This document shows, piece after piece, positions 1,184-20,922 of a stretch of DNA of 36,723 bases. Position numbers and translations under genes: made by a program. This DNA comes from a virus: IMG/VR virus record IMGVR_UViG_3300035698_018351, positions 1 through 36,723 of that record; one strand, 5' to 3'. The notes beneath the pieces were generated by a model. That model was not told where the DNA came from. It saw only the letters and a list, made by a program, of their open reading frames with translations, and ran no database searches. Position 1 is the first letter of the stretch. Every line of letters starts with the position of its first letter.

Positions 1184-1342
1184 TTCTTTCTCCTTAAAAA
1201 TTATATGTATTTTACCTGCTATCATCCCTAAATATATATAACCCAAAATGACCATAAATAATACCATTAATATGGCGTGATTATTATATATATTTATTTT
1301 TGGAATATAATTATAACTGTTAATTTTTTAAAGGAAAAAATA

Positions 1343-1760
1343 ATGGGGCATAAAATATTGATACCGACAATAGGATTACCTCGATCTGGAAAATCAACTT
1401 GGTCGAAAAAACAAGGGTTTCCCCATAGTGAATCCTGATTCAGTAAGATTAGCATTACATGGAGAAGCATTTATTGGATCTGCTGAAAGGATGATTTGGA
1501 CAATATCTTATTACATGGTGGGCTCATTATTTTTAGCTGGTCATGATCATGTGATACTTGATGCTACTAATTTAACTGTAGCGAGAAGAAAGGAATGGAT
1601 ATCTGAAAAGTGGCAGGTTAAATACAAAGTATTTAAAGCGAGTGAAAAGACTTGTATTGATAGGGCAAAGAAAGGAGGAAAGCACTATCTGATTAATGTG
1701 ATCAAGACAATGGCGGAGCATATTGATTATAATGTATCACCAATTTATAGGGGAAAATAA
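1343..1760 (+). CDS. Polynucleotide-kinase-like P-loop ATPase (AAA_33 type), split by a +1 frameshift
   Basis: The ATG at 1343 follows AAAGGAAAAAATA. It opens a reading frame with a P-loop, GLPRSGKST (residues 11-19), like the kinase domain of T4 polynucleotide kinase, but this frame stops at 1438. The rest of the domain continues in the +1 frame from about 1425: the NPDSVRLALHG segment, then VILDATNLTVARRKEW, both typical of AAA_33 kinases. Skipping one C in the TTTCCCC run at 1418-1424 restores a 138-residue protein. There is no phosphatase domain, so it would be kinase-only, phosphorylating 5' ends of nucleic acid if active. The shift may be a real inactivating mutation, a homopolymer sequence error or programmed slippage. 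Without the first part the product lacks its ATP-binding loop. Confidence 0.75.
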
Positions 1761-2022: not shown

Positions 2023-2448
2023 TTAAATTTTTATTTCATCAATTCGAATACCTATAAGTCTTGTTACTCGTTTAAGATAAAATGTAATTATAAACGCTAT
2101 CCACATTGTAACATTATAAAAATTAAATATATCAACTGTTTGTCTTGATACTGCGATCAAAAGTGATAATCCTGCGTATACTGATAATATTGCTGAAAAT
2201 ATAATAACTGTTTTTTGTTGATTTAATAATTCAAGTCGATGTATATGAGCTTTTTGATTACATTTTAAAACTTTCATAAATTTTTTTGTGTCCTCTGTTA
2301 TATTATCGTCTTTATCTACTATTATTCGAATATGATCTGCAATCTTATCATCAATATCAAACATTTTTTTGAGTTCTACAATTTCATCTTTTGTTGCATC
2401 TCTCCAATGCATATCATCTACATTTTCTTTAGGATCTTTTTCATTCAT
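2023..2448 (-). CDS. Two-span membrane protein, unknown function
   Basis: A 141-residue protein with AAGGAG six bases before its ATG. The N-terminal ~85 residues are acidic and soluble (MNEKDPKENVDD, then IADHIRIIVDKDD). They are followed by two hydrophobic segments, TVIIFSAILSVYAGLSLLI and NVTMWIAFIITFYL, separated by a short polar loop, and a short basic-acidic tail. This predicts a cytoplasmic N-terminal domain anchored by a membrane hairpin. Its 5' side borders the structured non-coding stretch at 2476-2690. No family recognised. Membrane proteins of this size in phages can act in lysis, superinfection exclusion or host takeover, but nothing here selects among these. Confidence 0.75.
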   Translation of the reverse strand: MNEKDPKENVDDMHWRDATKDEIVELKKMFDIDDKIADHIRIIVDKDDNITEDTKKFMKVLKCNQKAHIHRLELLNQQKTVIIFSAILSVYAGLSLLIAVSRQTVDIFNFYNVTMWIAFIITFYLKRVTRLIGIRIDEIKI

Positions 2449-2475
2449 AAAAGTCTCCTTTTTTTATTTTTAAAC

Positions 2476-2690
2476 TAAAGGGATGCAGAATTTTAGATAG
2501 GTAATCCCTTGGTTACCCTTTTCACAAGTAGTATTGAAAAAAGCAGAAAGAAGTCGACTCGTGAAAAAATCATGAAAAATCAGGATGCAATTATAACAGC
2601 ATGGATTATGGCGAACACCCTGATACCCTACAGTTTACAAATTCTGCCTAATAATTTTTCTGTAGATAAAAACAAAACTCGCCATACCCC
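2476..2690. ncRNA. Candidate structured RNA or leader with kissing hairpins
   Basis: This gap between two minus-strand genes has no convincing reading frame but several perfect inverted repeats: AAGGGAT 2478-2484 with ATCCCTT 2504-2510, TTTTCAC 2519-2525 with GTGAAAA 2561-2567, TATGGCGA 2607-2614 with TCGCCATA 2679-2686, and inside the last, CTACAG 2628-2633 with CTGTAG 2660-2665. The loop of the first hairpin (GCAGAATTT, 2485-2493) is complementary over nine bases to the loop of the last (AAATTCTGC, 2639-2647), which would give a long-range kissing contact. Neighbouring genes suggest the minus strand is transcribed, placing it as the 5' leader of the membrane protein gene or the 3' trailer of the cold-shock gene. 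A plus-strand RNA is also possible. No known RNA family recognised. Confidence 0.35.
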
Positions 2691-2703
2691 GATTCAATTC
2701 AAA

Positions 2704-2910
2704 TTAGATTTTTGTTACAACCGTAGCCTGCATACCTTTCGGTCCTTTTTCAGGGATAAATGATACATCATCCCCTTCACTTAGAGATTTAAATCCATCT
2801 CCTGTTATTTGAGAAAAATGAACAAATACATCACCGTCAGGACTTTCGATGAATCCAAAACCTTTTTTGTCATTAAACCACTTTACCTTACCTTTTGATT
2901 CTGTTGCCAT
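2704..2910 (-). CDS. csp: Cold-shock domain protein (CspA family)
   Basis: A 68-residue single-domain OB-fold protein. Both RNA-binding motifs are intact: RNP1 KGFGFIE (near residues 16-22) and RNP2 VFVHFS (near 28-33), after the hallmark GKVKWFND. Family members bind single-stranded RNA or DNA without strong sequence preference and melt secondary structure, acting in the cytoplasm as RNA chaperones or antiterminators. Length is normal for bacterial CspA. Phage-borne copies are known. This one sits between two structured non-coding stretches, the leader hairpin at 2943-2962 and the candidate RNA at 2476-2690. Its role in the phage (mRNA stability, antitermination) is inference. Confidence 0.95.
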
Positions 2911-2942
2911 GTTTCTACTCCTCTTTTGTTGATTAATGATAA

Positions 2943-2962
2943 TAATAACCCCCCCGTTATTA
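2943..2962 (-). promoter_or_regulatory. Hairpin in the leader of the cold-shock gene
   Basis: A perfect 7-bp stem (TAATAAC 2943-2949, GTTATTA 2956-2962) encloses a loop of six identical bases, C on the plus strand and G in the minus-strand RNA. It lies about 33 bases before the cold-shock start codon. Cold-shock mRNAs commonly carry structured leaders, so a regulatory role is plausible but not shown. Confidence 0.3.
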
Positions 2963-3024
2963 GGAAGATCTCACATATAGATCCTATATTTCTAGGACCA
3001 TTTTAACAATGCATTTAGCATTGG

Positions 3025-3279
3025 TTAAAGTTTTTTGTTATCTTTATAATAATCTTTTTCAAATGATTTTCTGAAATCAATTGACTGTTTACTTTCTTTT
3101 CCACAATATTTACAATTCATTTTTACATAATCGAAGAACTTATTAAGGAATTCTTCATGTGACTGGTCACCTTTTACTTTTTGTTCTTGACTAAGTTGTT
3201 TACCTTCTAACGGAGCACTAGTCCATTCATGGTAATCAAATATATGACATGCTATCCAATAAAATATTTTTTTAATCAT
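3025..3279 (-). CDS. Small protein with a CxxC zinc knuckle
   Basis: An 84-residue protein; AGGAGG lies ten bases before the ATG. The N-terminus (MIKKIFYWIACHIFDYHEW) is aromatic and hydrophobic but rather short for a membrane span. The middle is polar, and a single knuckle MNCKYCGKES near residues 53-62 is followed by a very charged Lys/Asp-rich tail. With only two cysteines here plus Cys11 and nearby histidines, zinc binding would need the N-terminal Cys/His residues or a dimer. No family recognised. Confidence 0.7.
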   Translation of the reverse strand: MIKKIFYWIACHIFDYHEWTSAPLEGKQLSQEQKVKGDQSHEEFLNKFFDYVKMNCKYCGKESKQSIDFRKSFEKDYYKDNKKL

Positions 3280-3387
3280 TCAATATTTCCTCCTGAAAAA
3301 TTTTATATAGTTAATAATCAAGTATAAATATATATACTTTGATATTACCATTAAAGAAACAATGATAGATTGCCTTTTAATCAATAA

Positions 3388-3400
3388 GAACAAATATTAA
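3388..3400 (+). promoter_or_regulatory. GAACAAAT-type upstream element, site 1
   Basis: GAACAAATATTAA, ending 21 bases before the ATG at 3422. It is one of eight copies of the motif placed just upstream of plus-strand genes in this window. It could be a phage late-promoter element ending near the transcription start, or a translation or RNA-processing signal. Confidence 0.4.
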
Positions 3401-3421
3401 AGATAAAGTGAAAGGAAATTC

Positions 3422-3952
3422 ATGATTCAAATATCCGATCTTCTGAAAAATATATCGTCTGGTCAAAGTGGAATCCCTACACGATTGATATTTAATCAAC
3501 TTGATATGGTATATAAAGGTCTTAAGTCAGGTATTAAAATATTAAAAATAGAACCTGTCAAAGAAGGTTTTATTGTTTATATGATAGTTCCTTCACAAAA
3601 TGATAGGAATAGGCATTATGATGTAGATTTCCTTTTTTTTACAAAAAATAGAATCACACAAACAACTAAATTCAAAGTATTTTCAAATAGTCCTAATTTT
3701 GGTTTCTCATACTCATATTTGTTCAATAAACAAAAAAGTCTTCTTTTTCCAGAATTGTATCCTCGTATAATGCTTAGACTACCTCCTAAAGTAAAAAATC
3801 CATTTGAAGTTACTGGTTTTGATAAGCATGTATATTCTGCATTGAAATTCGTATATAAAGAAAATTTAGCATCACTTGCACCTATTCATAAACGAAATGA
3901 TAAAATTAATATTATGACATTCAATGATAAAATGAAATCAATAAAAAAATAA
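3422..3952 (+). CDS. Hypothetical protein, possibly late or structural
   Basis: A 176-residue soluble protein. It has GAAAGG before the ATG and a GAACAAAT element 21 bases upstream, the arrangement seen at the sheath, tube and baseplate genes, which suggests late expression. It has beta-type alternation (IKILKIEPVKEGFIVYMIV, then YDVDFLFFTK), aromatic-rich turns (SNSPNFGFSYSYLFNKQK) and a basic C-terminus. No membrane span, catalytic motif or family recognised. A virion role is inferred only from the upstream element. It is followed by the longest non-coding stretch in the window. Confidence 0.7.
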   Translation: MIQISDLLKNISSGQSGIPTRLIFNQLDMVYKGLKSGIKILKIEPVKEGFIVYMIVPSQNDRNRHYDVDFLFFTKNRITQTTKFKVFSNSPNFGFSYSYLFNKQKSLLFPELYPRIMLRLPPKVKNPFEVTGFDKHVYSALKFVYKENLASLAPIHKRNDKINIMTFNDKMKSIKK

Positions 3953-4369
3953 AGTAAGAAATGATCCGCATACCTATCCTGCCGGATAGACAGCAGACAG
4001 TAGAATTATAAAGCTGCATTTGAAACTTTTGTTTGGTGGTATTCCTTACGTATTTAATTCATTTGGTAATCACATAAAAACTAAAAGAAAGTGAGTAGAC
4101 GGTAGGATATATCATGTCTATGGTAAGATGTTACTACAAGTCAATTGGGAATTGACTCATTTTACAGATACAAATTGATTAATATGAGTGTTTACAATAA
4201 TTCAATTCATTAGTTAAAATTTACTTCCAGGCCAGAAACGTACGATTCAAATATTTGCCACCATAACAAATACTAAAAGATATATCATAAAGTTGACTGT
4301 ATCTCTTAGGTTTCGGGAATTTATATATATACTAATTTTATTCCAAACAAAGTAAAGGAAAAAACGGTT
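3953..4369. other. 417-bp non-coding region with hairpins, function unknown
   Basis: No reading frame here looks coding. Seen: a hairpin CTATCC-TGCC-GGATAG at 3974-3989; a weak stem TAGAC 4096-4100 with GTCTA 4116-4120; a perfect 8-bp stem with a three-base loop, AGTCAATT-GGG-AATTGACT at 4139-4157, followed by CATTTTA; a 10-base palindrome CAAATATTTG near 4248; and the decamer GATATATCAT twice, near 4106 and 4280. In a phage with gaps usually under 150 bp this is exceptional. It may hold a small RNA, regulatory sites or the remains of a lost gene. The last ~50 bases (TATATATATACTAA and an AAAGG ribosome site) probably serve the gene at 4370. Confidence 0.45.
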
Positions 4370-4960
4370 ATGAACTTCAAATTATCAGCTAAAGATATCA
4401 AACAAATTCAAAATTTTTTAATGCTTAGTAAGTTTAAATTGAAGAGTAATGTGATTCCTCCTTTGACATCATTACCTCGTACTATAACAAATGTCAAAAA
4501 AATAGATGCTAAGAAATATATGAAAGCATTTTCTACTACTGATCAAATGAAAATTAAAAAATTAATTCCTTTCTTTTCGGATTATACAAAAAATAAACGT
4601 TTTCAGGTAGTACTGGCATCAGCTATAACAATTGACTCTGATGGTTCACGAGAAGAGATGACAAAAAAGTTACAAAATTTCAAGAAAGTGATAAAAAAAT
4701 CCACATCGAGTACAAAACAACAATATGCAATTGCGTCTATAATAGTTGTGATATTATGGGGATTGTTAATGAAATTACGTAATAGTGATTCTATAGGATA
4801 TGTTGCTGTCATTTTATCATTATTTGTATCAGGACTTTATTTAATTACTAAAGAAGAAAAGGATGCATCTGGAGATGTCACATTAAATAAACCAAGACCA
4901 TCAGGATCATCACCTACAAAAAAGAAACCCACCGCAACAAGCGATGAGTTCCTTTTATAA
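4370..4960 (+). CDS. Membrane protein of unknown function
   Basis: A 196-residue protein starting after AAAGGAAAAAACGGTT. About 120 basic, helical residues come first, then two hydrophobic segments (AIASIIVVILWGLLM and IGYVAVILSLFVSGLYLI) separated by a short polar turn, then a Lys/Pro/Ser-rich tail (GSSPTKKKPTATSDEF). The layout, a basic cytosolic domain, a membrane hairpin and a low-complexity tail, resembles other small membrane proteins in this window (2023-2448, 23614-24072). No family recognised. It ends one base before the convergent minus-strand gene, leaving no room for a separate terminator. Confidence 0.75.
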   Translation: MNFKLSAKDIKQIQNFLMLSKFKLKSNVIPPLTSLPRTITNVKKIDAKKYMKAFSTTDQMKIKKLIPFFSDYTKNKRFQVVLASAITIDSDGSREEMTKKLQNFKKVIKKSTSSTKQQYAIASIIVVILWGLLMKLRNSDSIGYVAVILSLFVSGLYLITKEEKDASGDVTLNKPRPSGSSPTKKKPTATSDEFLL

Positions 4961-5812: not shown

Positions 5813-5839
5813 ACTATCCCGCTGGTTACTCCCGACAAG

Positions 5840-5885
5840 AAGTTATAGGAGGGGAATTTCGCCCCTTACTCTCCTCCTATAACTT
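5840..5885. terminator. Long two-part hairpin, probable bidirectional terminator
   Basis: A perfect 13-bp stem (AAGTTATAGGAGG 5840-5852, CCTCCTATAACTT 5873-5885), with an alternative inner stem GGGG 5851-5854 / CCCC 5862-5865. It stands between the converging genes 5474-5812 and 5971-6240, so termination is the simplest role. A clean T-run directly after the stem is missing on both strands, which leaves the call open. The stem hides an AGGAGG sequence on each strand. Confidence 0.5.
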
Positions 5886-5970
5886 ACCCTTTCATATAAC
5901 ATGATCATTTTTTAACCTCCATATGATCGCTTCCACCTCCCATAATTCCCTATGTTCAAAATAATTATGT

Positions 5971-7847: not shown

Positions 7848-8150
7848 CTATCCAATGTCATGTTCAATTTTAAACATCATTCGAGCAATATTACCAAATG
7901 CTTTTATACCAAATAATTCATCATTTCTATATAATGTTATATTATGATGACGTTCAGAGGTATGTATTTCTAATTTTATAGATTCACAACCAAGTCTATC
8001 ATTAGGCCACCATTGTGTTATATCAGTAAGTATACCTTTATGTTTGTAAAGTGTATATGTACTCCCTCCTGAATAGCATTTTTTTGTTGTAATAATTACC
8101 AATTGATCTACATAAGGTTCCAAACTATTTATAAATAAGTTAGTAATCAT
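7848..8150 (-). CDS. LFKIEHDI-tail paralogue, copy 11 (last in array)
   Basis: 100 residues, start ATG at 8150 after AGAGGAT. Like its siblings it has an N-terminal helix (FINSLEPYVDQ), a first strand QLVIITTKK, a KGIL turn (KHKGILTDI near residue 37), several further strands and the terminal tag MMFKIEHDIG. This copy has a Trp pair (TQWWPND) that others lack, and ends in Gly rather than Ala. The spacing KL-I-x-I then KGIL recalls small SH3- or Sm-like barrels, but this is only a fold guess. The spacer to the Trp-repeat gene is nine bases, the same as within the array. Confidence 0.8.
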   Translation of the reverse strand: MITNLFINSLEPYVDQLVIITTKKCYSGGSTYTLYKHKGILTDITQWWPNDRLGCESIKLEIHTSERHHNITLYRNDELFGIKAFGNIARMMFKIEHDIG

Positions 8151-8159
8151 AATATCCTC

Positions 8160-8435
8160 TTAATCAATATCATGTTCGATTTTAAATAATATTTTTTCAG
8201 TTTCATCATGTTCGATTATTTTTTCTCTATATTTACCTAAGCTAGCCCTATAATGTAAATTAATAACTACACCATTACCTTGCCCACATTCAAGTTGACA
8301 TACAACTAACAATTTGCTAGTACGGGAAGATTGAATGAAATTGCGACTTTTCAAGATACCTTTTGTAGTCTTATGTCCTGGATCAATTATAGTTATCAAT
8401 TTATTCATATAATGATCAGTTGAAACATCATCCAT
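8160..8435 (-). CDS. LFKIEHDI-tail paralogue, copy 10
   Basis: 91 residues, the shortest copy, with GGGGAG upstream of the ATG at 8435. It contains YMNKLITIIDPGHKTTKGIL near residues 9-28 and ends with KIIEHDETEKILFKIEHDID. Both segments are close matches to copy 6 (9333-9617: YINKLITIIGPGYSTIKGIL and KIIEHDETEKLLFK), while the middle differs. So copies 6 and 10 form a recent pair, or have exchanged sequence. Function unknown. Confidence 0.8.
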   Translation of the reverse strand: MDDVSTDHYMNKLITIIDPGHKTTKGILKSRNFIQSSRTSKLLVVCQLECGQGNGVVINLHYRASLGKYREKIIEHDETEKILFKIEHDID

Positions 8436-8446
8436 ATCATCTCCCC

Positions 8447-8728
8447 TTATGCAATATCATGTTCAATTTTAAATAACATTTTTGCATTATCGCTTTTTAT
8501 AGTTATCATCTTCATCGCAAGGTTATTAGTAGGTCCTAATTTTATTCTAGTCACTTTATCTGAATGAGTCTGAACAACAACAAATGTCATATTCGTATCC
8601 TTATTAGTAAATACTTCTGTAATAATACCTGTAGCTTCTAAAGTATTATTATCATCATTATTTCTAATAAGAATTATATGTACTAATTCATTTACAAATG
8701 TATGTAAACAGCGATTAGTCAATCTCAT
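8447..8728 (-). CDS. LFKIEHDI-tail paralogue, copy 9
   Basis: The ATG at 8728 is chosen because AAAGGGATTATT precedes it and it falls ten bases after the previous gene, matching the spacing of the array. A reading from 8749 would overlap that gene. The product is 93 residues: N-terminal helix, ELVHIILIRNND strand, a TGIITEV turn where other copies have KGIL, a Thr/Val-rich middle (MTFVVVQTHSDK), and the tag KMLFKIEHDIA. It is among the more divergent copies. Function unknown. Confidence 0.75.
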   Translation of the reverse strand: MRLTNRCLHTFVNELVHIILIRNNDDNNTLEATGIITEVFTNKDTNMTFVVVQTHSDKVTRIKLGPTNNLAMKMITIKSDNAKMLFKIEHDIA

Positions 8729-8738
8729 AATAATCCCT

Positions 8739-9029
8739 TTAAATATCATATTTAAGTTTAAATAAAATTCTACTAGTATCAGAATATTGTTTTACGTCTA
8801 TAAGCTCAGATGGTCTCGTAATCAACATTCTAATAACTCCTTTAATACCTTGTAACATAATAATTACACCATCAATATATCTAACAGCATCATATAAAAT
8901 TCCTACTGATACTCGTATATTAGAATTTAATAATGGTAACGGGTCATCCCATCTAACACTAACACGTATTAACTGATCATCATAATGTTTAAGTGATAAA
9001 ATCATTTCTTCAATTTCCTGATCGTCCAT
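8739..9029 (-). CDS. LFKIEHDI-tail paralogue, copy 8 (divergent tag)
   Basis: 96 residues, ATG at 9029 after GGGAGATAAT. It has an acidic N-terminal helix (MDDQEIEEMILSLKHY), strand QLIRVSVRW, a VSVGILYDA turn in place of KGIL, and the most divergent end of the set, RILFKLKYDI, lacking the final Ala. Its middle is unusually Ile/Val/Leu-rich (DGVIIMLQGIKGVIRMLI), consistent with core beta strands. It keeps the nine-base spacing behind copy 7. Function unknown. Confidence 0.78.
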   Translation of the reverse strand: MDDQEIEEMILSLKHYDDQLIRVSVRWDDPLPLLNSNIRVSVGILYDAVRYIDGVIIMLQGIKGVIRMLITRPSELIDVKQYSDTSRILFKLKYDI

Positions 9030-9038
9030 ATTATCTCC

Positions 9039-9323
9039 CTATGCAATATCATGCTCAATTTTAAACATTGCCGCCTCTACATCACTTCCGATTGTCATAC
9101 TTACTAAATTTTGTTTAGTAACTAAAATTGTTTCATTTCCAATATCAGTAATTATAGTCAATGTTATTTTATCGGGATTTTTCATACTTCCAGCCATCAT
9201 CCAGAGTATACCTTTATATATGTGATTTACTGGCGATTCTTGTATATTATATGTACACCATATCATTATTGTTATATATTTACCGTAGCATTTACTAATT
9301 TTTTCATATACTGTCGGATACAT
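9039..9323 (-). CDS. LFKIEHDI-tail paralogue, copy 7
   Basis: 94 residues, ATG at 9323 after AAGGAG. It belongs to the same subgroup as copies 1 and 2: KCYGKYITI, then HIYKGILWMMAG, then VTKQNLVSMTIGSDVEAAMF and the tag FKIEHDIA. In all three the segment before the tag reads I-x-x-G-x-[DE]-[IV]-[DE]-x-A, so this subgroup is defined beyond the tag. Function unknown. Confidence 0.8.
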   Translation of the reverse strand: MYPTVYEKISKCYGKYITIMIWCTYNIQESPVNHIYKGILWMMAGSMKNPDKITLTIITDIGNETILVTKQNLVSMTIGSDVEAAMFKIEHDIA

Positions 9324-9332
9324 ATCAACTCC

Positions 9333-9617
9333 TTATATATCATTTTCAAGTTTGAATAATAATTTTTCAGTTTCATCATGCTCAATTATTTTTTCTTGAT
9401 ATTTATGTTCATCTATTTTATATATTATTCTAACATGTCTCATTTTATCTGGTTTAAATTCTAGTGAACATGATGTAGAAAATGTGTTAACAGTTTCATG
9501 ATAATATCTATAATCTTTCAAGATACCTTTTATTGTAGAATATCCAGGTCCTATTATAGTTATTAATTTATTTATATATAAAGTAATTGAAGTAATATCT
9601 TTCATTCTAGTTTCCAT
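9333..9617 (-). CDS. LFKIEHDI-tail paralogue, copy 6
   Basis: 94 residues, ATG at 9617 after AAAGGGTATT. It is closest to copy 10: YINKLITIIGPGYSTIKGIL near residues 14-33 and KIIEHDETEKLLFK near the end, with a shortened tag LFKLENDI lacking the last Ala. The central 35 residues are unrelated to copy 10, suggesting the ends are conserved or exchanged while the middle diversifies. Function unknown. Confidence 0.8.
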   Translation of the reverse strand: METRMKDITSITLYINKLITIIGPGYSTIKGILKDYRYYHETVNTFSTSCSLEFKPDKMRHVRIIYKIDEHKYQEKIIEHDETEKLLFKLENDI

Positions 9618-9626
9618 AATACCCTT

Positions 9627-9923
9627 TCATGCAATATCATGTTCGATTTTAAATAACATTAAATCAATCTCAGGCATAACTTTTATTCCCCAACCAACAA
9701 TTGCATATTCACTAAACCAGATAGTATTTGGTTTATATTTCGTAGATACATAACATCTTACACAAGGTATAATTCCTTCTTGAAGTATACATTCATTGAT
9801 AATACCATTAAACACAAGCTCATTTTTCCAATTGTAAATTTTTATTAATTTATGTAAATTAGCACTTAAAATTTTACATACCTCCCTCGCAGTAAGATTC
9901 TCTAAAGCATTCATTTTTTTCAT
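9627..9923 (-). CDS. LFKIEHDI-tail paralogue, copy 5
   Basis: 98 residues, ATG at 9923 after AAGAGGATATT. It has a longer N-terminal helix (ALENLTAREVCKILSANLH), strand KLIKIYNWKNEL, FNGIINEC at the KGIL position, a Cys/Val-rich middle (PCVRCYVSTKYK) and the tag LMLFKIEHDIA. Four cysteines in all, more than its siblings. Function unknown. Confidence 0.8.
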   Translation of the reverse strand: MKKMNALENLTAREVCKILSANLHKLIKIYNWKNELVFNGIINECILQEGIIPCVRCYVSTKYKPNTIWFSEYAIVGWGIKVMPEIDLMLFKIEHDIA

Positions 9924-9932
9924 AATATCCTC

Positions 9933-10259
9933 TTATGCAATATCATGTTCGATTTTAAATAGACTTTTACCAACATCATCATGTTTGTATATTTTAAGAT
10001 GTTTATTATCAATCTCATAATACCAAACTATCATCTGTCGAACTTCTTCATTTGACATTTGAATATATAATACAATTCTAAAATATTTCATTGTATCACT
10101 ATCTTTTTGTCTTTCAATTCTATTTAAAATACCTTTCGTCGTAATTGAAGTATTTTTTATACGACTTATGAAAGATATTAATTCTCCGATATGTAATTTT
10201 GCCATCTTAACAAACTCTTCGAATTGATCTTGAGCAGTAGTACTTATGTATATAGACAT
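9933..10259 (-). CDS. LFKIEHDI-tail paralogue, copy 4
   Basis: 108 residues, ATG at 10259 after TAGGAGAATAAT. The N-terminal helix is extended (TAQDQFEEFVKMAKLH), followed by ELISFISRIKN, TTKGILNRIER, long strands (MKYFRIVLYIQM, VRQMIVWYYEI) and the tag KSLFKIEHDIA. Before the tag, KHDDVGK occupies the position of EHDETEK in copies 6 and 10, pointing to common ancestry over the last ~20 residues. Function unknown. Confidence 0.8.
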   Translation of the reverse strand: MSIYISTTAQDQFEEFVKMAKLHIGELISFISRIKNTSITTKGILNRIERQKDSDTMKYFRIVLYIQMSNEEVRQMIVWYYEIDNKHLKIYKHDDVGKSLFKIEHDIA

Positions 10260-10268
10260 ATTATTCTC

Positions 10269-10643
10269 CTATGCGATATCATATTCGATTTTAAATAATG
10301 CTGAATCGACATCTGAGTAAGTTATTATTTTACATTTTTTTTGTAAAATTGAAGTATTTATATATTCATGTTTACATCGTAATGAATAAGAGATATAACT
10401 AACATAATCATTATAGTCAACATCATGGTCATGGTCATCACTATTTAGATAACTTTTCTTTGTAGTATATTTGACATAAGTTTCATAATCCCCACCTTCA
10501 GCAATTACCAAATCACATTTAATAAGAATTCCTGTTACAGTTGCAAATCCACCTTTATCAAGTGTTATCAATTTATTCATATTCTTTTCCAATATTTCAT
10601 AAATTGATTCAATATCAAACCCGATATATGTATTACTATTCAT
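10269..10643 (-). CDS. LFKIEHDI-tail paralogue, copy 3 (longest)
   Basis: 124 residues, the longest copy, ATG at 10643 after TAGGAGAAGAT. It shares IESIYEILEKNMNKLITL with the N-terminal pattern of copies 1, 2 and 7. TVTGIL follows, then an insertion very rich in Asp, Tyr and Ser (NSDDHDHDVDYNDY) that no other copy has, and the tag SALFKIEYDIA. The Asp/His cluster could bind metal, but there is no further support. Function unknown. Confidence 0.8.
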   Translation of the reverse strand: MNSNTYIGFDIESIYEILEKNMNKLITLDKGGFATVTGILIKCDLVIAEGGDYETYVKYTTKKSYLNSDDHDHDVDYNDYVSYISYSLRCKHEYINTSILQKKCKIITYSDVDSALFKIEYDIA

Positions 10644-10651
10644 ATCTTCTC

Positions 10652-10939
10652 CTATGCAATATCATATTCGATTTTAAATAATGCTGTTTCAATTTCATTT
10701 CCATAATGGATACTCATTAAATTTATTTCGTTTACTAAAAATAATCTTTCGCCTTCATCTGAATTCATTGTTACTACTACTGAAAAAACTTCATCATCAT
10801 CTAAAACTTTTTCATCATCTATAAATGTAATTATCCCTTTAAATACAAACATTATACCTTTACTTGGAGGAGACCATTTTAATTTTACTGTTGATACTTT
10901 ACCAATACATTTTTCTAATTGTTCATATATTGTTTCCAT
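10652..10939 (-). CDS. LFKIEHDI-tail paralogue, copy 2
   Basis: 95 residues, ATG at 10939 after AGGGGAATGTA. Subgroup of copies 1 and 7: IYEQLEKCIGKVSTVKL, then FVFKGIITFID, an Asp/Glu-rich loop (DDEKVLDDDEV), VNEINLMSIHYGNEIETALF and FKIEYDIA. The tag has Tyr in place of His, as in copy 3 next to it. Function unknown. Confidence 0.8.
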   Translation of the reverse strand: METIYEQLEKCIGKVSTVKLKWSPPSKGIMFVFKGIITFIDDEKVLDDDEVFSVVVTMNSDEGERLFLVNEINLMSIHYGNEIETALFKIEYDIA

Positions 10940-19278: not shown

Positions 19279-20922
19279 ATGGCAATTCCAATTTCACCAG
19301 GTGTCTATACCAAAATAATTGACCTATCTACTTATGTACAAGCTGTACCTGGAACTATAGGTTTCGTCTGTGTAATTTCCAGAAAAGGTCCAGACAATAA
19401 ACTTACATTTGTTGGTAGTCAGGAAGAATTGTTTCAGCAATTCGGCAAACCTAATATCACCGATTATGGCAAACAATATGGTCAAGGTCTTTATATAGCC
19501 AATAACCATATGTCTGTTTCATATTCATTGTATGTTATAAGGCCACTTCCTGCGGATGCAACTTATGCAAACCTTTTCATGGTAGCAGATTCAACAAATA
19601 TGGCAGTTACAGTAGAATCACTTCCTTCTCAGAATACAATTTTAGAATTGAATACTCAATTGGAAACAGCAGTTGGTTTCCTTACTCCAATTTGTTATTT
19701 TATTCCTGTAGGTCGTGGTGATGTATATGAAGATTTAGGTGTAAGATTAACTGTACATGCAAATCCTACAGTTGAAGATGTTTATATACTTGACGTATAT
19801 GAAACTCAATTTGATGGGGATGATGTTATTATTGAAACTTTCGAAGTTTCATTTGATGATACACTGTTAGACGAATCAGGAGAATCAATTTTCATCGAAG
19901 ATGTTCTTAAAACCTATTCCAAAACTTTAATTTGTAAAGTTAATGAAAATGGAGTAGATGCAGTAGAAATAAATAGTCTTGATTATACTGAGCCTTTCTC
20001 TAGTCCAGTTGCGATTCATTTAGCTGAAGGAAGTGAAGGTTCACTCGTGATAGTTGATCCAGATACTGGAAAAGCTAGAATCGATTCTACAGTTGCAGAT
20101 CAAGTTCTTTCTCAAGCATATTCTGGAATTATTGATGATGATGTTGTAGATCTTGATAATATCTATTTTACACTTGTTTGGGATGCAGGATATCCTACAA
20201 ATGTTAAAATGGCAATTTATACACTTGTAAATGATTACAGACGCGATTGTGTTGCTATCATGGATAATGGTGACAATGCTACTTATGCAGATGCAATAAT
20301 AGCAAGAGAAGATGAACATACATTTGATTCTAGATATGTTGCTTTATATGAATCATATAATAAAGTTTACGATACATTTACAGGTCGTGATATTTGGGTT
20401 TCTCCAGTTTATCATATGGCGACATTAATTCCGCTTAATGATAAATTGTATGATATCTGGTATCCATCTGCAGGATTGAATCGTGCAACAATAGGTACAA
20501 TTAAAGAACTTAGATTCAATCCTAAATTGGGTCAAAGAGATAACATGTATCTTGCTCAATTGAATCCGATTGTGAAGTTTAATGTTGGTTACACTGTTTG
20601 GGGTCAATTGACTTCTCAAAAGAGACCTAGTAAACTTCAGGATCTTCATGCAATTCGTACTGTTCTTTATATTAAGAGAGCTCTTGAGCAATATCTTAAA
20701 TTCTTTATCTTTGAGTTTAATGATGAAGAAACTTGGTCACAGATTGCTAGTGATATTACTCCGTTTCTTGAGTATATACAGGCAGCAAGAGGCCTTAGAT
20801 CTTACAATGTTGAAGTTGGTGCAACTGAATACGAATTAAAATCTAAAATGTGTCATTGTAATGTTACACTGGAACCAACTCCAATAATTGAGAAAATTAT
20901 GCTTAACCTGTACGTTAAATAA
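19279..20922 (+). CDS. Tail sheath protein
   Basis: 547 residues, starting MAIPISPGVYTKIID, the classic sheath N-terminus (PGVY). Its C-terminal third has the conserved sheath features: WVSPVYHMATLIPLNDK, YDIWYPSAGLNRATI, LGQRDNMYLAQLNPIVKF, then LHAIRTVLYIKRALEQYLKF and a final beta strand (TPIIEKIMLNLYVK). Sheath subunits polymerise around the tube and contract at infection. A ~250-residue variable insertion domain (residues ~95-290), acidic and beta-rich, lies in the middle, as in other long sheaths. AGGAGG precedes the ATG. It is followed directly by the tube gene. Confidence 0.95.
   Translation: MAIPISPGVYTKIIDLSTYVQAVPGTIGFVCVISRKGPDNKLTFVGSQEELFQQFGKPNITDYGKQYGQGLYIANNHMSVSYSLYVIRPLPADATYANLFMVADSTNMAVTVESLPSQNTILELNTQLETAVGFLTPICYFIPVGRGDVYEDLGVRLTVHANPTVEDVYILDVYETQFDGDDVIIETFEVSFDDTLLDESGESIFIEDVLKTYSKTLICKVNENGVDAVEINSLDYTEPFSSPVAIHLAEGSEGSLVIVDPDTGKARIDSTVADQVLSQAYSGIIDDDVVDLDNIYFTLVWDAGYPTNVKMAIYTLVNDYRRDCVAIMDNGDNATYADAIIAREDEHTFDSRYVALYESYNKVYDTFTGRDIWVSPVYHMATLIPLNDKLYDIWYPSAGLNRATIGTIKELRFNPKLGQRDNMYLAQLNPIVKFNVGYTVWGQLTSQKRPSKLQDLHAIRTVLYIKRALEQYLKFFIFEFNDEETWSQIASDITPFLEYIQAARGLRSYNVEVGATEYELKSKMCHCNVTLEPTPIIEKIMLNLYVK

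Follow-up and report, generated by a model that had tools for sequence, protein, structure and literature searches.

In this DNA, from a jumbo phage with a distant relationship to AR9/PBS1, a 255-base gap between a cold-shock gene and the gene that follows it may harbor an intercistronic mRNA element that is structured and probably contains pseudoknots, a reading to which we assign a probability of about 0.45. The position of the element, its strand context, the lack of a coding signal, and an excess of self-complementarity once pseudoknots are allowed are established by the analyses below, and a structured phage RNA, for which the explanation would be an ordinary one, is plausible but unproven. 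Such an element, if real, would place a structured RNA between cistrons in a jumbo-phage lineage; no RNA of this type from a jumbo phage was among the papers listed in literature searches. It would also make it possible to test directly whether the cold-shock protein of a phage acts on phage RNA.

Phage fragment and flanking genes

The window, that is, the whole stretch of DNA analyzed, comprises the 36,723 bases of one whole IMG/VR record. A search with its tail sheath protein gave 38 relatives in viral contigs and none in genome (GTDB) contigs, and PBS1/AR9, BpSp, LPJP1, and phiR1-37 came first among the GenBank phage matches listed for this protein, with 26 to 30% identity. Judging from these tail sheath matches, the window is part of the genome of a jumbo myovirus that is distantly related to AR9/PBS1. 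The features in and around the gap are as follows.

2704-2910, minus strand: upstream gene, encoding a cold-shock domain protein (csp) of 68 aa (PF00313, E = 6.2e-26)
2449-2703, minus strand: candidate element, the 255-base gap from the csp stop codon to the start of the downstream gene
2455-2461, minus strand: AAAGGAG, the Shine-Dalgarno sequence for gene 2023-2448, about 16 nt beyond helix H6
2023-2448, minus strand: downstream gene, encoding a 141-aa protein with hydrophobic stretches (from the open reading frame list)

The preliminary description had placed the candidate next to a cold-shock gene, and the Pfam match bears this out. The 141-aa protein gave only weak Pfam matches below the cut-offs and no match in PHROGs. 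Both genes bordering the element are read on the minus strand. The G+C contents of csp (0.357) and the element (0.333) lie above the window mean of 0.305; within the element, G+C is 0.36 at 2477-2690 and 0.18 and 0.23 at the edges.

Coding, promoter, and terminator signals in the gap

Scored per codon, 2449-2703 gives negative values in every one of the six frames (−0.15 to −0.37), compared with +0.155 to +0.373 for nine neighboring genes, and the longest plus-strand frame in the gap has no protein family match in PHROGs or Pfam. A coding explanation was rejected on these results, and the original claim that the stretch lacks a gene is upheld.

A search for sigma-70-like or terminator-like sites within the element found none. 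The string TATATATW, which is similar to the A/T-rich early promoter that an excerpt of PMC5312081 describes for AR9, is overrepresented in the window (46 copies versus 21.1 expected; none of 100 shuffles reached 46) and has zero copies inside the element, so that a promoter of this kind was rejected there. The AR9-type late-promoter string AACA-N6-TA (same excerpt of PMC5312081) occurs at 2716-2705 on the minus strand with an implied start at 2705. Because this string occurs 79 times in the window and is unenriched before genes, lying within 200 bases of only 4 of 19 gene starts, the site at 2716-2705 is probably due to chance, and we rejected it as a sign that the element has a start of its own. 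Given the codirectional genes, the lack of a terminator-like or sigma-70-like site, and the lack of TATATATW inside the gap, cotranscription of the element with csp is the simplest reading.

The leader between the fold and the downstream gene (2449-2477; 29 nt) contains one UUAAA and one further UAAA, which would be expected anyway in A/T-rich DNA. The downstream start itself lies within a separate, modest hairpin, which ranks third among 43 starts at −6.2 kcal/mol and might be relevant.

Candidate fold and competing architectures

The four perfect stems of 6 to 8 bp initially reported are all present: two of 7 bp (2478-2484 with 2504-2510 and 2519-2525 with 2561-2567, in plus-strand coordinates) and two of 6 bp (2579-2584 with 2619-2624 and 2628-2633 with 2660-2665), and, in addition to these, one of 8 bp (2607-2614 with 2679-2686). 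The nine-base loop-loop complementarity could likewise be reproduced, as GCAGAATTT at 2485-2493 matches AAATTCTGC at 2639-2647 at 9 of 9 positions (inverted repeat I4). Since both flanking genes are on the minus strand and the minus strand folds better, we take the relevant RNA to be the minus strand, on which the following helices are predicted.

H1, 2678-2686 with 2607-2615, minus strand: 9 pairs, one of them G-U; crosses H3, with base 2615 common to both
H2, 2660-2666 with 2627-2633, minus strand: hairpin with one kissing strand in its loop
H3, 2615-2624 with 2579-2588, minus strand: hairpin of 10 pairs
H4, 2557-2569 with 2517-2529, minus strand: hairpin
H5, 2513-2518 with 2499-2504, minus strand: possible H-type pseudoknot together with H6
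H6, 2504-2510 with 2478-2484, minus strand: 7 pairs, with the other kissing strand in its loop
H7, 2639-2647 with 2485-2493, minus strand: kissing helix of 9 Watson-Crick pairs connecting the H2 and H6 loops
P1, 2693-2703, 2686-2690, and 2673-2680 with 2469-2479, 2480-2484, and 2488-2495, minus strand: alternative nested closing helix, which excludes H6 and H7

On paper, a nested junction and a multi-pseudoknot fold compete for the same bases. The nested architecture would retain H2, H3, H4, and H5, close the ends by pairing 2673-2703 with 2469-2495, and exclude H6, H7, and most of H1; it would also occupy the bases of the possible H5/H6 H-type pseudoknot at 2478-2518. Raw stack sums are about −95 kcal/mol for the pseudoknot set and −84 kcal/mol for the nested set, values that omit loop costs and cannot choose between the two. 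The exact stem-set search described below favors 2682-2688 with 2598-2604 over H1. As to the kissing loops of the preliminary description, the nine-base match is there, but the pair is not established, because the nested closing helix competes for the same bases and another partner for the GCAGAA segment lies at 2541-2548. Sequestration of the Shine-Dalgarno sequence by the H4 loop was considered and rejected, as 159 of 500 shuffles did equally well.

Pairing compared with chance

Perfect stems of at least 6 bp with loops of up to 60 bases number eight in the stretch versus 2.8 expected (15 of 2,000 shuffles reached eight), and five of its perfect stems are mutually compatible versus 2.1 expected (28 of 2,000 shuffles). 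The kissing arrangement, two hairpins with a 9-nt loop-loop match, appeared in 2 of 3,000 shuffles of the stretch. It is the sole instance in the window, and ten shuffled windows held 1, 2, 0, 0, 1, 0, 0, 0, 1, and 2 such arrangements (0.7 per window). The assertion that the nested and kissing arrangement exceeds expectation thus stands locally and is less striking window-wide. Nested folding with RNAfold was not significant, with a z of −1.46 for the minus strand (matched by 14 of 200 shuffles) and −0.43 for the plus strand (53 of 200); nor were a greedy pseudoknot sum (P = 0.20), the longest stem (P = 0.25), or the count of 7-bp stems (P = 0.07).

We then scored the gap, with gene-to-gene bounds, by an exact search for the best compatible stem set with pseudoknots allowed, at penalties of 3, 5, 6, and 7. 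The minus-strand score was equaled by 0, 0, 0, and 1 of 500 shuffles, respectively (z of −3.15 to −3.75 over the four penalties), and the plus-strand score by 15, 3, 2, and 1 of 500. In a comparison of the strands, the pseudoknot z was −3.5 for the minus strand versus −2.3 for the plus strand. Nested-only folding scores can therefore overlook a candidate that is picked up by a pseudoknot-allowed score.

In a scan of 1,218 overlapping window-strands, in which those with a first z (12 shuffles) above −2 were left unrefined, the element ranked fourth (z = −3.78; 0 of 150 shuffles), below two windows at a strong hairpin near 32.2 kb and a place in the tail sheath gene at 19381; a second tail sheath place, 20461, is level with it in pseudoknot z. 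The element had come first and second in a preceding scan that was coarser (344 window-strands, 24 shuffles). Among nine other intergenic stretches, one of them a gap taken as two halves, only the plain strong hairpin at 5813-5970 scored higher. That hairpin, which lies between convergent genes, is the best-pairing of the intergenic stretches tested (z = −4.4 on the plus strand) and is probably a terminator. As a yardstick, seven tRNA genes reached z values of merely −0.9 to −2.4, so the pseudoknot measure is blunt for short RNAs. Altogether, the evidence for excess pairing is moderate, at a level attained by a few percent of places. The proposal of an intergenic structured RNA receives moderate support from the noncoding character of the gap, its G+C content (0.36 at 2477-2690, as opposed to 0.18 and 0.23 at the edges), and its pseudoknot-allowed pairing, with the correction that the strand should be minus.

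Search for homologues

Curated RNA families (Rfam 15), including GOLLD and ROOL, gave no match anywhere in the window at the gathering cut-off, and at a loose threshold over 2380-4420 the matches overlapping the element had E values of 8 or worse. ARAGORN and RF00023 found no tmRNA or tRNA-like RNA, with positive controls in 14 of 14 genomes, and the window has no tRNA.

At the DNA level, the best match to the element in the 38 related records had an E value of 0.018 (18-mers), and that in GenBank phages had an E value of 0.07. DNA patterns searched in viral contigs gave 46 places for a 16-mer and 0 for an 18-mer, and no homologue was obtained. In 163 loci, nhmmer recovered the window's own copy only, and blastn found nothing else better than an E value of 0.03. 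In another GenBank phage search, all the matches among those listed (20 places of 75 records) fell in that portion of the query which corresponds to the cold-shock gene. A covariance model (R1), built from one sequence given twice and detecting close relatives only, gave best E values of 0.42 in the 38 related records and 0.14 in AR9, PALS_2, LPJP1, phiR1-37, and BpSp. A topological descriptor (H5/H6 plus a 7-nt kiss) was discarded as too lax, as it matched 129 places in 937 kb of relatives. With no homologue, no covariation test was possible.

The neighboring proteins were searched as well. No homologue of the 2023-2448 protein was recovered from viral contigs, genome (GTDB) contigs, or GenBank phages; the 64-840 protein gave no homologue in viral contigs or the 38 related records; and the cold-shock protein had one weak 22-residue match in those records. 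The family of the gene at 3422-3952 had two loci in viral contigs, L067 and L070, both already known. L067 is the closest relative with this gene (76% identity), and its contig begins 17 bases before the gene, short of the element region. L070 is the second (55%), with different genes upstream and without a cold-shock gene, and a cold-shock gene is also absent from five of five AR9-like phages. Together with the lack of a homologue by any route, these absences make the csp-plus-element cassette look lineage specific.

Other features in the window and its relatives

A 417-nt noncoding gap at 3953-4369 (plus strand) follows the phrog_20045-like gene, and its position is kept in L067 (549-903) and L070 (1799-2215). 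Each has a hairpin near the stop codon, with differing sequences, and the gap of the closer relative ends in a conserved stretch that is A/T-rich and promoter-like; the pieces tested gave no significant pairing statistic. In AR9 (L169:3845-6125), g227, the homologue of gene 3422-3952, lies directly before the nonvirion RNA polymerase subunit gene g226, whereas in the window the long noncoding gap comes next.

A polynucleotide-kinase-like gene at 1335-1760 (plus strand; phrog_505) is split over two frames that abut near 1430, with the P-loop part in one and the rest in the other. About ten small open reading frames of 66 to 124 aa occupy 7848-10852 (minus strand), mostly about 10 bases apart and many with similar leaders (ATTGCATA...), an arrangement that suggests a putative tandem gene family. 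Among 14 phage cold-shock loci, two (L004:5001-5548 and L011:5001-5376) have a tRNA gene following the cold-shock gene at a distance of no more than 300 bases. The L004 locus forms an island of 17 tRNA genes, in which about 270 unexplained bases separate csp from the next tRNA.

Alternative explanations and proposed role

The main rival, which we consider quite possible, is that the gap is a plain untranslated spacer in which the stems and the loop-loop match are accidental and caught attention because the whole window was read. Seven kissing arrangements in ten shuffled whole windows, the nested z and several simple tests falling short of significance, two coding places in the tail sheath gene that pair about equally well, and the failure to find conservation in 38 related contigs, GenBank phages, and five jumbo phages all fit such an accident. 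It accounts less readily for a pseudoknot-allowed score that none of 500 shuffles reached at three of the four penalties within gene-to-gene bounds, for a kissing arrangement so rare in shuffles of the stretch itself, and for an excess that sits in a gap of raised G+C and favors the strand of the flanking genes.

An independent phage small RNA of about 235 nt is unlikely; it would start close to the stop codon of csp and act either in trans or together with the cold-shock protein in an RNA-protein particle. The nested fold pairs both ends of the gap and a late-promoter-like string (excerpt of PMC5312081) would place a start at 2705, but that string is unenriched before genes, the 3' end lacks a terminator-like site, and the downstream Shine-Dalgarno sequence adjoins the fold. 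It is very unlikely that the gap is debris, either a decayed gene or flanking DNA that arrived together with csp by horizontal transfer: the lack of a cold-shock gene in the AR9-like phages, the other genes at the corresponding place in L070, and the raised G+C of csp and the element would agree with this origin, whereas the lack of a family match for the longest plus-strand frame, of a codon signal in any frame, and of similar DNA elsewhere (38 related contigs and GenBank phages) speaks against it.

We preferred a cis-acting intercistronic element because of its strand, its spacing, and its lack of signals of its own, and we infer its transcription, its folding in the cell, and its role. A minus-strand mRNA would run from csp through the element into gene 2023-2448, with the fold separating the two cistrons. 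The downstream ribosome site would follow the last helix after an A/U-rich leader of about 16 nt, and the fold may act there to control translation or stability; the cold-shock protein from the same message would be a natural candidate binder. A bolder version, which we regard as quite unlikely, is a compact phage RNA of about 210 nt representing a new family, in which the pseudoknots H1/H3 and H5/H6 would be tied by H7 and form part of the mRNA for a phage cold-shock chaperone, which would open or close the fold and so operate an RNA switch.

Comparison with known systems

As far as the available excerpts of the cited papers describe them, three systems offer parallels to the intercistronic element. 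GOLLD and ROOL RNAs (PMC12286853) are phage encoded and have multiple pseudoknots and kissing loops, as predicted here; many GOLLD RNAs exceed 800 nt, and both families often lie near tRNA islands, whereas the element has at most 255 nt, lies in a window without a tRNA, and has no Rfam match. The Escherichia coli cspA mRNA thermosensor (PMC4166951) adopts two mutually exclusive folds that involve untranslated and coding regions controlling cspA itself. The element would likewise have two mutually exclusive folds, here on paper only, in the message of a cold-shock protein; unlike in cspA, its fold comes after the stop codon of the cold-shock gene.

In the gene 32 operator of T4 and RB69 (PMC535899), a pseudoknot of about 28 nt lies 5' of the Shine-Dalgarno sequence, followed by a leader that is less structured, exceeds 40 nt, and contains UUAAA/UAAA repeats, and the T4 gene 32 protein, a single-strand nucleic-acid binder, represses its own gene. 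The element differs in its length of more than 200 nt and in that its candidate binder is encoded upstream of it. It would share with that operator a place in a phage mRNA and the layout of a fold, an A/U-rich leader, and a Shine-Dalgarno sequence, with a cold-shock protein as the candidate binder in the position held in T4 by a single-strand nucleic-acid protein.
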